Shown piece after piece: positions 47,011-50,723 of a DNA stretch of 64,000 nucleotides. Below the pieces are notes generated by a model. That model was not told the DNA's origin, searched no databases, and was given only the letters and a program-made list of their open reading frames with translations. Location: positions 1 to 64,000 of the forward strand of contig JAJPHN010000010.1 in assembly GCA_021325235.1 (NCBI GenBank), read 5' to 3'. Every line of letters begins with the position of its first letter. Within the stretch, counting starts at the first letter, position 1. This DNA is from Terriglobia bacterium (GTDB lineage: Bacteria; Acidobacteriota; Terriglobia; Bryobacterales; Bryobacteraceae). Both the position numbers and the translations under genes were made by a program.

Positions 47011-47041
47011 AAAAGCCCCGCTGCGGACCAGCGGGGCTTTT
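47011..47041 (-). terminator. Strong intrinsic terminator after the S8 protease
   Basis: A perfect 12-bp inverted repeat AAAAGCCCCGCT / AGCGGGGCTTTT with a 7-base loop, followed on the minus strand by a T-rich run (TTCCTTTCT). Its A and T flanks are symmetrical, so it can stop transcription in both directions, separating the protease from the RRM gene. Confidence 0.9.
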
Positions 47042-47066: not shown

Positions 47067-48860
47067 TTACTGCTCGCCCGTAATCGCTACGCTCGCTCCC
47101 CACATGCTGCGGTTCGCGTCGGTGGTGTTCGCGCCCCACATGGAACGGCTGCCCCAGATGGCGCTGGAGCCGGAGGTCGAACTGGCGCCCCACATGGAAC
47201 GGGTGTCCCAGATGATCTGGTTGGTATCGGTCAGCGACGCGCCCCACATGAAGCGCGTACCGAAAACGGAGTTGGCGCCCCACATGAAGCGGCTGCTCCA
47301 TATCGAGGACGGATCGAAGACAAGCGAGACGTTGCCCGTGGTGGGATCCATCTGCGCGACCGGAGACATGGCGGTGCCGGCCGGAACCGCCGTATTCACC
47401 GATGCCAGCGCCGCGCCTAGATCGAGATAGCCGGCGCCCACAGTGAAAACGTCGTAGTAATCCACAAACGTCTGGCCGCTGCCCGGATCCGTCACGGAAC
47501 TCGAGTCGGGGAAGGTCTTGTAGGCTGTCTGCATCAGGATGGCTTTCACCTGATCCGGGGTCAGTTTCGGGTTAGCCTGCAGCAGATCGGCCACAGCGGC
47601 GCTGACCACCGGAGTCGCCATGCTGGTGCCGCTGAGCGTGAAATAGGTGTTGGAAACCTTGGTGGCATTGTTTCCGCTGACGTTCTGATAATAGGACATC
47701 ACCACGGCATTACCGGGATTCTGTTTCACCAGCGTGCTGTTGTTGGCCAGCAGCGAGACGACCAGATTGCCAGGCGCGACCAGATCGGGTTTAACGATAT
47801 GGTCCACCGCAGTTGGACCTTTCGAGCTGTAGCTGGCGACGAGATCGTCGCTGCGGGTGGGCGTGCCTTCTGCCTTCATCGCGCCGACCGTGATCACGTA
47901 GGGATCGTTGCCGGGCGCGTTGATCGTGCCGTAGCCCTGTTCGCCGTAGGTATTGTCGCGGCCATCATTACCGGCCGCCGCCACCACCACGATTCCCGCA
48001 TTCCAGGCCGCTTCCACCGCCTGGCAGAGCGGATCCTGCGTGTAGCTCTCGTACACCGGGCGCCCCACCGACAGATTGATCACGCGAATGTTGTAGACGT
48101 TTTTCAGCGCGATGGCCGTATCGATGGCAAGAATGACGTTGCTGTCGGTACCCTGCCCGTTCGCATCGAGAACTTTCAGATCGATCAGGTTGACACCATA
48201 CGCCACGCCTTTAAACGTGCGCTTGCAGGTGTTGCAGGACGACGAAACGCCATTGGAAGCGATGATGCCGGCGACATGCTGGCCATGGCCGAACTGGTCG
48301 GGCGCGGGAATGCCGTTGATGCCCTTAGAGTTGGCTGGGAGCGGAGCAGTGATATTCGCCAGAACCGCGGCGGCGGCCTGAGCAGCAGCGGTTTGGGTAA
48401 AGTCATAGCTGAAGACCGGCGCTTTACCGTTTCCGAGGTTCGGATCGGTATTGACGCCGCTGTCGATTACGGCCACGCCGATGCCGGAGCCGGTAAAGCC
48501 CGCGCCCCAGGCAGCAGCCGCATTGATTGCCCCCGCCGTGTTATCCAGATGGGCATGAATCGGCCGGTCGGGCGAGATGTAGGCCACCTCGGGGTCATTG
48601 GCCAGAGCCTGCACAGCGGAAGCAGATAAGTGGTAGAGCCCGGCCTTTGCACTATGAAGCCGCCCCGCGGTAGTGCCGCCCAGAGCAGCGATTTTGGCTT
48701 CATGCTGGGCGCCCGGGGTATGTTTCCATTGCACAATGACGGGCAGGTTGCCGTTTGAATTCAGGGCCGTAGCGCGGAATTCGTGAGCGAGTTTGGGGTG
48801 ACCGGCAGGGCCCGCAAAAGCGCCCGCCGCCACCAAGAACAGAGAAAGATATTTCCTCAC
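47067..48860 (-). CDS. Secreted subtilisin-like (S8) serine protease with C-terminal RxMWGA repeats
   Basis: About 597 residues from GTG 48860 (AGGAG five bases upstream; the GTG at 48866 would overlap it). Signal peptide VRKYLSLFLVAAGAFA, an I9-type propeptide, then the catalytic triad Asp133 (VAVIDSG), His192 (FGHGQHVAG, with Gln replacing the usual Thr) and Ser413 (SGTSMATP), and the oxyanion Asn in AAAGND. A Cys pair occurs in SSSCNTCKR. After the protease domain, residues 519-590 hold five RxMWGA repeats. The repeats may anchor the protein on the cell surface. A terminator follows the stop codon. Confidence 0.93.
   Translation of the reverse strand: MRKYLSLFLVAAGAFAGPAGHPKLAHEFRATALNSNGNLPVIVQWKHTPGAQHEAKIAALGGTTAGRLHSAKAGLYHLSASAVQALANDPEVAYISPDRPIHAHLDNTAGAINAAAAWGAGFTGSGIGVAVIDSGVNTDPNLGNGKAPVFSYDFTQTAAAQAAAAVLANITAPLPANSKGINGIPAPDQFGHGQHVAGIIASNGVSSSCNTCKRTFKGVAYGVNLIDLKVLDANGQGTDSNVILAIDTAIALKNVYNIRVINLSVGRPVYESYTQDPLCQAVEAAWNAGIVVVAAAGNDGRDNTYGEQGYGTINAPGNDPYVITVGAMKAEGTPTRSDDLVASYSSKGPTAVDHIVKPDLVAPGNLVVSLLANNSTLVKQNPGNAVVMSYYQNVSGNNATKVSNTYFTLSGTSMATPVVSAAVADLLQANPKLTPDQVKAILMQTAYKTFPDSSSVTDPGSGQTFVDYYDVFTVGAGYLDLGAALASVNTAVPAGTAMSPVAQMDPTTGNVSLVFDPSSIWSSRFMWGANSVFGTRFMWGASLTDTNQIIWDTRSMWGASSTSGSSAIWGSRSMWGANTTDANRSMWGASVAITGEQ
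47094..47291 (-). repeat. Five phased RxMWGA repeats in the S8 protease tail
   Basis: The hexapeptide R-[F/S]-M-W-G-A occurs at protease residues 524, 536, 554, 572 and 584. Spacings are 12, 18, 18 and 12 residues, all multiples of six. Three copies are preceded by an IWxx element. At DNA level the repeated CCCCACATG core can look like a short repeat array but is coding. Confidence 0.85.
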
Positions 48861-49094
48861 GTACACTCCTGGTTTCTTCTAAAAGCGGCGGACGTGACAC
48901 TTGGCTGGTTCCGCACGCATTCAAAGCACTCATCGGACGATTCCAGCCGTTTCGATAACCGCCCGTATCTCTAACTCTTTGAAAAAGCGCGACACCGGGG
49001 CATTTTCTGAGGAGGCGTATCTGTACGGGTTATAGCCTGTTACGGGCGACAGGGCTTTGCTCGCCTGGCGCGCGAATGCATAGAATGAGCAGAA

Positions 49095-50723
49095 ATGGTC
49101 TCGGCTGAGCTGTTACAGGAGCTCCGCGGATGCATCGAGGAGCGCCGGATCGAACACGGGATACGGCTGCTTGAGCGCGAACGGGAGCGTTTCGAGCAGA
49201 TCGCACCCGGGCTCGCGGGCGCTGGGCTGGCGATCGGCTATCTGGCGGAATGGGTGGATCTGGGCTTTGAGGACGACGGTCTGCTGACGTCCATTCTGGC
49301 GAGATTCGATGCACGTTCGCGTCAGGCGCTGCCGTTATCCGAATACCTGCACATCCGGCTGGCGGAAGCACTCATTGCCATGCGCCAGGAAGAACTGCCC
49401 GAGGCGCTGCGTCATCTGAATGCCGTGCTGGCGCTCGGAGATGAGACTTCGCGATCAGAAATTTCGCTGATTGCGACGCTGTGGAAAGCGCGCTCCCTGC
49501 GCAAGGCGGGCGAATACCGGCAGGCACTCGAACTGACGCGGCAGGGAATGCAGATGGCGGCCGGTCTGCAACTCTGGCCCATGAAAGCCGTCATGCAGAC
49601 GCTTGAAAGCTGGATCGTCTTTCAGAATGGCGATGCCAAAGAGGCGGTCCGCATTCTGCAGGAAGCAGAGAACGTCCTGCGCGACACCGACGACTACATC
49701 ACGCTCGGCAACATTCAATCGGCCTACGGGCGGATTGCGTTGCGCGAGGGACGCTACGATCACGCGCTCAAGTATTTCGAGCTGTCCATCGGGTATTTCA
49801 AAAAGCGTGAGTCGCTGGCGGGCTATCTGGCGCGCTCGCTCACCAATATGGCGCAGGCCAAACGCTTTCTGGCTTTACAGCTGCGCCGGAGCATGGATGC
49901 GCGCTGGGAACGGCAGCGGCGCACGGGCCAGGGCACGAACGGGCAGAACGGGTCGGCCAAATCGGGCCAGCTCGAGCGCATGTACGATCTGCTGCGCAGC
50001 GCGCAATCGGATCTGGCGGAAGCGGAGCGCATCTATCGCGGAGCGCAGAATTATCACGGCGCCGGCAATGTGGACGTCAATCTGGCGCAGATTCATCTCG
50101 ACCTGAGCAATCTGGAAGAGGCCGAGCAGCGCGCCGGCGAAGCCTTCGAGCTGGGCGCGACCAAGGCCGATTACCTGTTGATGTGCCGCGCGCGAATGGT
50201 GCAGGCCTCGATTGCCAATGCGCGCTTTGAAGACGAGATCGGCGAGGGCGAAGAAGACCCGAGCCGCTTTGCGCAGCTGGCGCACGATTGCGCGAAAGAA
50301 GCGATTGATTATGCGGAACGAACCCAGAGCCGCCGTCTGCTGGCTCAGGCGCACATCTGCCGCGGACTCACGCTGGTGAATGGCTTTTTCCACGAAAGCG
50401 AGGCCGCGCGCGCCTGCTGCGACCGCGCCGAATCGTATCTGGGGCATGATCGCCACGATGCACTCTGGCAGGAGATCGAAATTCTACGCGAACGCATTCT
50501 GCACGGCGGGGTCGAGGAACCCAATCTACGTGCCTGGTCGCAGGGTGCGGTGGGCAACAAGTCGCTCCAGGCGGTCGTGGCGGAATTCGAAGAACTGGTA
50601 ATTCGCAAAGTCTGGGAGCACGAGGGCCGTAAAGTGGCGCGAGTGGCGCAGCGGCTGGCGGTGTCGCCCAAGAAAGTGCGCCGGGTGCTCCGCCATCTGG
50701 GCGTGCTGAGCGAGGACCGATAA
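49095..50723 (+). CDS. TPR-repeat protein with C-terminal Fis-like HTH
   Basis: A 542-residue soluble protein. Residues ~90-470 are tetratricopeptide-like helical repeats, for example LWKARSLRKAGEYRQALELT, QSAYGRIALREGRYDHALKYF and VNLAQIHLDLSNLEEAEQRA. The C-terminal 45 residues form a Fis-type helix-turn-helix (FEELVIRKVWEHEGRKVARVAQ, then RLAVSPKKVRRVLRHLGVL). This combination suggests a MalT-like or enhancer-type transcription regulator controlled by protein binding at the TPRs, but without ATPase domain. It is divergent from the S8 protease gene across 234 bases. Confidence 0.78.
   Translation: MVSAELLQELRGCIEERRIEHGIRLLERERERFEQIAPGLAGAGLAIGYLAEWVDLGFEDDGLLTSILARFDARSRQALPLSEYLHIRLAEALIAMRQEELPEALRHLNAVLALGDETSRSEISLIATLWKARSLRKAGEYRQALELTRQGMQMAAGLQLWPMKAVMQTLESWIVFQNGDAKEAVRILQEAENVLRDTDDYITLGNIQSAYGRIALREGRYDHALKYFELSIGYFKKRESLAGYLARSLTNMAQAKRFLALQLRRSMDARWERQRRTGQGTNGQNGSAKSGQLERMYDLLRSAQSDLAEAERIYRGAQNYHGAGNVDVNLAQIHLDLSNLEEAEQRAGEAFELGATKADYLLMCRARMVQASIANARFEDEIGEGEEDPSRFAQLAHDCAKEAIDYAERTQSRRLLAQAHICRGLTLVNGFFHESEAARACCDRAESYLGHDRHDALWQEIEILRERILHGGVEEPNLRAWSQGAVGNKSLQAVVAEFEELVIRKVWEHEGRKVARVAQRLAVSPKKVRRVLRHLGVLSEDR

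Follow-up and report, generated by a model that had tools for sequence, protein, structure and literature searches.

A tryptophan-based hexad tail on subtilisin-like proteases of Acidobacteriota and its gene linkage to MASE9-type sensors

Subtilases (peptidase family S8) have in common with the protease described here a catalytic domain and its active-site residues. The nearest solved sequences found in a PDB search were 9ues and 3afg, each entitled 'Subtilisin-like serine protease', and the alignments to these two best matches stop at residue 474, leaving a C-terminal tail of six-residue units (hexads) uncovered. The best NCBIfam match, which came from the S8 domain, was to the type VII secretion mycosins (TIGR03921) at 113 bits against a cut-off of 278.75, and the protein is not a member; mycosin and anti-phage IteS membership were both rejected, with scores far below cut-off. 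For the tail the closest described system is the left-handed beta-helix, in which one coil takes 18 residues, or three hexads, and the hexapeptide repeat has an aliphatic residue at position i and a residue at i+5 that is usually exposed. Like that repeat, the tail has a six-residue unit, Gly after i, a small or branched residue at i+4 and a three-hexad superperiod; unlike it, the tail has Trp in place of Leu, Ile or Val at i, a hydrophobic residue at i+5 and polar variant hexads. The third described element is the membrane-associated sensor domain MASE9 (PF20972), whose cut-off is passed by a gene neighbouring the protease of one relative (L074; handles of this form denote loci of this analysis). 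In the loci described here the MASE9 gene adjoins one for a protease, and in some cases it encodes the domain by itself, in about 260 aa.

The window, that is the whole 64,000-nucleotide stretch of Terriglobia DNA analysed, carries an S8 (subtilisin-like) protease gene on the minus strand at 47067..48866 (Pfam PF00082, E 8.4e-49), with its stop codon at 47067-47069. There are two start candidates, a GTG at 48866 giving 599 aa and a GTG at 48860 giving 597 aa, and as read from the sequence an AGGAG is better placed ahead of the latter. Residue numbers below start from the GTG at 48866, so that the 597-aa numbering of a preliminary description of this locus runs two lower. A putative signal peptide (VRKYLSLFLVAAGAFAG...; 48801..48860, minus strand) was likewise read from the sequence, and with this signal-peptide-like start we describe the protease of this soil bacterium as putatively secreted. 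The Peptidase_S8 catalytic domain spans residues 126-450 (47517..48491, minus strand; Pfam and an 18-row alignment), scoring 166.8 bits against the PF00082 cut-off of 21.8, which places the protein in family S8, and ahead of it lie weak Pfam matches to protease prodomain families that are below their cut-offs. Asp135, His194, Asn300 and Ser415 are invariant in the 18-row alignment; we take Asp135, His194 and Ser415 to be the triad and Asn300 the oxyanion residue of subtilisin. Going by these residues, the gene encodes an S8 protease with its active-site residues intact. A terminator-like hairpin (GCCCCGCTG...CAGCGGGGC and then a T run) was read from the sequence at 47014..47038 on the same strand.

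The catalytic His was found, as first described, within HGQHVAG (H194, residue 192 in the earlier count). The departure from HGTHVAG is real, yet it is an ordinary variant common to congeners and not special to this protein: HGQHVAG occurs in L001 and in L040-L042, and HGEHVAG in three more, in a tally in which 59 of 199 ORFs were unmatched by the search pattern. We rejected it as a functional novelty, and it leaves the catalytic His intact.

The tail opens with a conserved segment, TAMSPVAQMDPTTGNVSLVFDP (residues 498-519; 47310..47375, minus strand), predicted from models and alignment to be a beta-hairpin, in which S501 and P502 are invariant in the alignments. An array of twelve hexads follows (residues 520-591; 47094..47309, minus strand; delimited from the sequence and homologous tails), reading SSIWSS, RFMWGA, NSVFGT, RFMWGA, SLTDTN and QIIWDT from residue 520 and then RSMWGA, SSTSGS, SAIWGS, RSMWGA, NTTDAN and RSMWGA. 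The protein closes with SVAITGEQ (47070..47093, minus strand), G[DE] in the last four residues being recurrent in the family. The five R[FS]MWGA copies originally reported at distances of 12, 18, 18 and 12 residues were confirmed in the protein sequence, as RFMWGA at residues 526-531 (47274..47291) and 538-543 (47238..47255) and as RSMWGA at residues 556-561 (47184..47201), 574-579 (47130..47147) and 586-591 (47094..47111), all on the minus strand. That first account missed those Trp hexads that have no Arg, and also that the non-Trp hexads are regularly placed. All eight tail Trp residues (523, 529, 541, 553, 559, 571, 577 and 589) equal 1 modulo 6, a phase in which none of the body Trp residues (47, 120 and 288) falls. 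For eight independent Trp residues the chance of a single phase would be about (1/6)^7, a figure that is no test of structure because the repeats come from duplication. Trp is absent from four of the twelve hexads, as is also normal in the family, and the variant hexads at 547, 565 and 583 are 18 residues apart. Recent tandem duplication of the DNA was rejected, Tandem Repeats Finder reporting a single array at 47131-47200 of 3.9 x 18 bp with 64% matches, and it is also opposed by pooled synonymous differences between adjacent hexads of 0.548 per site.

Sought literally, R[FS]MWGA was present in one of 199 pooled ORFs, that of the window; the hexad behind it is widespread in relatives, for which reason we rejected a motif unique to the window protein. 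Compared across these sequences, RxMWGA is the local form of the hexad that the family shares, W-[GS]-[DTSN]-[SG]-[VAI]-[VLI]. The form R.[MVL]WGA is also found in the congeners L040 and L041 (RALWGA or RSVWGA-like) and once in L072, and is absent from L042, and other spellings in relatives include SVVWGT, NIVWGN, TAVWGD and SNALWG. Most of the Acidobacteriota subtilase relatives that were read carry a hexad tail at the same position, with looser or aliphatic forms elsewhere. Among the named relatives (80 loci of GTDB genomes) are Bryobacteraceae, Candidatus Solibacter and Acidobacteriaceae; tails that are looser or lack Trp occur in L019 and L024 and in MAGs labelled Armatimonadetes, Gammaproteobacteria, Chloroflexi and Burkholderiales. 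Protein searches were positive in 92 of 297 genomes at the level of the phylum (E 1e-30) and in 92 of 399 at that of the class (E 1e-80). The order found in the window, from hairpin segment through W-hexad array to G[DE] near the C-terminus, is that of its Acidobacteriota relatives, and the protease belongs to what we define in this analysis as the hexad-tail S8 branch of Acidobacteriota. Searches of open-licence PMC papers yielded no report of the motif or of the protease-sensor pairing described below.

From the 199 ORFs with a Ser motif, 184 ended inside their locus and 168 of these had a tail of at least 30 residues; tails with four or more W[GSADN] were called W-type (n=137, in 112 distinct architectures, both sets being phylogenetically non-independent and containing at least one false positive, the long actinobacterial protein L146, and a few loose W-rich tails such as L019 and L020). 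The consensus of the W type (612 hexads, 89 proteins) is W, G (0.79), D/T/S, S/G, V/A/I, V/L/I, with V, L or I at i+5 in most hexads, and that of the aliphatic type (151 hexads, 18 proteins) is L/V/I, S/G, D/E, G, V/I/L, L/V/I. Set in the same register, tails of other lineages have L, I or V in place of the W. Polar or small residues predominate at the W position of variant hexads (n=136; S 37, A 18, D 15, Q 11). Trp-free hexad tails (VLSEGV, GVLIGD) were seen on S8 proteases of Burkholderiales and relatives (L112, L116, L119, L122, L134) and of Pyrinomonadaceae and Blastocatellia (L111, L115), and the C-termini of L112, L119 and L122 consist of GE plus one residue, like that of the window protein. 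Some hexad-tail S8 genes also form tandem groups of two or three (L043, L052, L059, L065, L078, L243), and the HLLSDG/VVLGDG tail of L189 weakly matches Pfam LED_rpt (24.9 bits against a cut-off of 59).

A general tag on other kinds of protein was considered and rejected, the true hexad ORFs that were read being S8 tails except for L168, a hexad ORF of 131 aa that lies at the edge of a contig and lacks its front. These came from a hexad pattern search of the phylum that matched 62 of 297 genomes, with 30 loci read (L148-L177); L169 has no Ser pattern, yet by our own reading its ORF contains an S8 domain, and the rest of these 30 loci have Gly-rich or spurious ORFs. In the window's genome none of six two-hexad DNA matches had three WG hexads in a row, a weak test since the window locus has none either.

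The strict multiple-of-six register that had been proposed does not hold as a rule. Spacings between successive Trp residues (n=1115) are most often 6 (699) or 12 (132), followed by 11 (42), 10 (41) and 13 (39), with spacings of 10-11 residues in some lineages; all spacings are multiples of six in 37 of the 137 W-type tails, that of the window included, and its strictness is thus one outcome of a looser rule. Two congeners break register, with W[GS] spacings of 6,13,6,12,6,24 in L040 and 6,6,6,13,6,17,6 in L041. The departures are themselves patterned: the final W spacings are 13,6,12,6 in 13 of the 137 tails, and the 13- and 12-residue spacers have recurring residues (NVF..G and GF). Tails coded as W and non-W (o) hexads take forms such as WWWoWWoWW, with oWWoW in 53 of 137. 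Non-W hexads are three hexads apart in 68 cases, a fraction of 0.221 compared with 0.104 +/- 0.017 in 500 shuffles; with each of the 112 distinct architectures taken once the count is 53 versus 28.0 +/- 4.8, a value reached in 0 of 1000 shuffles in a test that still counts related architectures separately. Read from these tails, the variant hexads have an 18-residue (three-hexad) superperiod above chance, to which the window conforms. Between adjacent six-spaced hexads dN/dS is 0.23 (705 pairs from 131 proteins, 52 pairs being DNA-identical), and it is still 0.23 without the W codon and the next codon, both of which were selected by the search pattern. The protein repeat is preserved while its DNA diverges, and adjacent hexads are under purifying selection.

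How near this register comes to that of a left-handed beta-helix was gauged with the Pfam model Hexapep (PF00132, cut-off 27 bits). Fragments of four aliphatic sister tails scored 38.1 and 59.2 bits, which pass, and 17.2 and 18.2, which fail; as whole proteins L112 scored 15.6 bits and L111 gave no match. Searched against the PDB, an 84-residue aliphatic fragment matched hexapeptide-repeat transferases with a best E of 9.8e-12, among them LpxD-type acyltransferases (3eh0), which have the left-handed beta-helix fold. Unmodified, the tails of the window, L069 and L100 had no Pfam match and thus fall outside PF00132, and the W-type tails tried against the PDB gave nothing credible, the window tail having one match at E 0.41. 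With Trp (and Phe535 in the window) changed to Ile, in copies that are diagnostic only, Hexapep scores became 27.5 bits for the window, 47.2 for L100 and 55.7 for L069, with L097 below cut-off at 22.4. Hexapep matched none of the controls (4 reversed, 5 hand-made shuffles and 10 computed shuffles with the Ile register kept), and reversed L097 weakly matched another left-handed-helix model, LbH_EIF2B, at 14.5 bits against a cut-off of 54. As the Trp-to-Ile copies score and the reversed or shuffled copies do not, the register of the tail is near that of the hexapeptide repeat, apart from the Trp. Three hexads per coil are present as a sequence period, in the variant hexads of the window and in the family excess, with no coil seen; an aliphatic residue at i is missing from the window tail, where Trp stands, and L/V/I occur there only in the aliphatic sister tails.

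Structure prediction gave a different picture. In the AlphaFold2 model of the window protein (24 sequences) pLDDT was below 50 over residues 530-599, and in that of the L069 tail (28 sequences) the repeats stood at 34-50 per block and only the preceding segment was confident; both alignments are shallow, and the repeats align poorly. The window model has strands at 503-506 and 513-516, in blocks at pLDDT 73 and 67, and the same pre-repeat hairpin stands at 75-86 in the L069 model. The preliminary description had proposed a regular tail, such as a short beta-solenoid, in place of an ordinary linker. Regularity is upheld by the conserved position, the dN/dS value and the superperiod, while the beta-solenoid is possible from the sequence and was not predicted. 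Of the two outcomes named beforehand as counting against the proposal, restriction of the motif to this protein is false for the hexad. The other, variable spacing in orthologues or predicted disorder, is partly borne out: the spacing does vary and the repeats are of low confidence in AlphaFold2. The solenoid idea thus gains support from sequence and none from the models, and we would rate such a fold as at best an even prospect.

A recurrent group of ORFs around the tail-bearing genes includes MASE9-type membrane proteins. Three were scanned with PF20972 (cut-off 24.3): the neighbour of L074 passed at 29.4 bits, and the other two were below at 22.1 and 14.8. Next to L069, Pfam placed a MASE9 domain ahead of HD and GAF domains. 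At L071, L074, L076 and L086 the MASE9-type proteins are stand-alone, about 250 aa long and encoded directly downstream of the protease gene, those of L071 and L074 showing no output domain in Pfam scans. A profile built from ten MASE9-type neighbours matched 76 loci, some places having been fetched twice. A MASE9-type gene was present within 500 nt of 57 of 153 hexad-tail genes (and absent from that distance in 96) versus 1 of 25 tail-less S8 genes, in a tally with automatic classes, a required flank of 700 nt on one side, and a tail-less control mostly from other phyla whose one partnered gene (L035) has a loose W-rich tail. When 700 nt were required on both sides the counts were 37/90 versus 0/20 (Fisher 1.3e-4), with phylum as a confounder. 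Within six genomes, all chosen in the knowledge that they hold MASE9-type genes, such a neighbour was found per gene for 12 of 29 hexad-tail genes versus 0 of 20 complete tail-less S8 genes (25 tail-less rows in all, 0/25 partnered, 16 of the 20 complete ones having 700 nt downstream), and per locus for 12/31 versus 0/19 (Fisher 0.0015; some loci overlap). Among the 59 partnered places (57 hexad-tail, 1 tail-less and 1 with too little flank) the gene lies downstream on the same strand in 46. Translational coupling was rejected: of 46 stop codons, 14 lie in ATGA or GTGA, but 14 of 25 TGA stops is about chance, and the downstream starts are putative. The adjacency of S8 and MASE9 genes is gene linkage, not proof of function.

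Other signalling genes, without MASE9, neighbour some of the proteases. At L096 they encode a receiver-kinase and a sigma-54 regulator, at L097 an OmpR-type regulator, at L100 a propeller histidine kinase and at L102 a propeller-GGDEF protein; the genes scanned with Pfam next to L072, L090 and L120 are not sensors. In the gammaproteobacterial MAGs L102, L103 and L104, S8 tails of the LWADGY/LWSDGY kind lie next to sensor genes, that of L102 being propeller-Y_Y_Y-GGDEF by Pfam and those of L103 and the partial L104 alike by our own reading.

No MASE9-type gene was found in the window or in its genome (95.72% complete). A 24-row MASE9 profile found none in nine genomes of the genus (the window's and eight congeners), and in the same search 9 of 11 genomes of other genera were positive; the Pfam MASE9 model by itself, which is insensitive on this branch, gave no match in 17 genomes of the genus. 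With no such sensor gene found in its genome, the window protease looks like an orphan of the pair whose tail has diverged. Divergent from it lies a gene for a TPR protein (49095..50723, plus strand; TPR_12) with a possible C-terminal helix-turn-helix by our own reading; a TPR gene adjoins the protease in L040 and L041 as well (tblastn) and is a candidate regulator. The block of PolX, CDF transporter, protease and TPR gene was seen in L041 and partly in L040 and L042.

Several explanations of the tail were weighed. The superperiod, together with the two aliphatic sister tails that pass Hexapep, is a pointer to a left-handed-beta-helix-like module. Our leading explanation, which we hold tentatively and would place a little short of probable, is that the tail is an extracytoplasmic docking or retention module of this kind. 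It would form about one turn per 18 residues with Trp at the core position, and as a non-catalytic domain would keep mature protease attached to the envelope or to a matrix. Where a MASE9 partner exists the tail would link the protease to the membrane sensor, and in the window's genus it would work without one and have drifted (Arg at i+3, Met at i+5). Speaking against this explanation are the low AlphaFold2 confidence, the absence of Pfam matches for unmodified W-type tails, the aliphatic tails that fail Hexapep, the mostly polar or small residues at the W position of variant hexads, the hydrophobic i+5, the 10-11 residue spacings in some lineages and the 96 hexad-tail genes with no MASE9-type gene nearby. 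The repeats could instead be flexible and 'sticky', duplicated hexads whose aromatic Trp-Gly units bind polysaccharide, membrane or substrate with no fixed fold, as would suit the low AlphaFold2 confidence in both runs, the variable copy number and spacing of the hexads and the Asp-rich units of about 10 residues in some proteins (L033, L039). The recurring spacer places and residues, the superperiod and the low dN/dS amount to more regularity than a free tail would require, and this alternative seems to us possible but doubtful. Decay is a further option, the tail being the neutral residue of an ancestral domain whose partner was lost in this genus. Such a history accords with the distribution of MASE9-type genes inside and outside the genus and with the four window hexads that have no Trp, though such hexads are normal in the family; set against it, the window tail retains a single register and the C-terminal motif, L040 and L041 retain their tails (ending in TGEK and TGEQ), and perfect hexads can exist without a partner, as in L073 and L100. 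We hold neutral decay to be very improbable.

The ends of the protein bear on one more alternative, also raised in the preliminary description, in which tail and terminal G[DE] together serve as a signal for export, sorting or maturation that the secretion process cleaves off or recognises. G[DE] falls within the last four residues of 75 of 137 W-type tails versus 5 of 31 other tails. It is found with a MASE9-type gene near (31/51) and without one (43/85), and was on that account rejected as a by-product of the downstream start codon. Immediately ahead of the hydrophobic signal-peptide core, a WG motif was seen in 19 of 112 W-type proteases with a start accepted by our filter (for example RHSAAWGKR, RRKAVWGPR and TTTWGAR; loci include L014, L028, L033, L039, L049, L063, L071, L076, L081 and L094), at a body WG density of 0.00076 per residue. 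Both features are in keeping with a signal. Hexad tails nevertheless extend across presumably different envelopes, for example to Anaerolineales (L118) and Gammaproteobacteria (L102-L104), all MAGs, and the transport-like groups that recur in 38 neighbourhoods are small (one with an outer-membrane-barrel protein in 4 and an ABC-type ATPase in 3, identified partly by our own reading). We consider a signal decidedly unlikely. As for the docking module, a broader version would make hexad-tail subtilases and MASE9 sensors a widespread pair in Acidobacteriota and scattered phyla, the exported protease docking onto the sensor by a left-handed beta-helix of Trp-core type and extracytoplasmic proteolysis, or the state of the tail, feeding into HD-GYP/GGDEF (c-di-GMP) signalling, with the window as an orphan whose tail has diverged; in this full form we think it rather unlikely.

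The literal R[FS]MWGA finding is modest, and the hexad-tail branch with its sensor linkage is the better story. Acidobacteriota can hold many subtilases (28 PF00082 matches in one genome), and many of these bear a tail for which Pfam has no named model, resembling a Trp version of the classical solenoid repeat. If the tail folds, the left-handed beta-helix would be seen to have a further, new code. If the pairing with MASE9 is functional, it would give these sensor domains a testable partner and link secreted proteolysis to c-di-GMP signalling.
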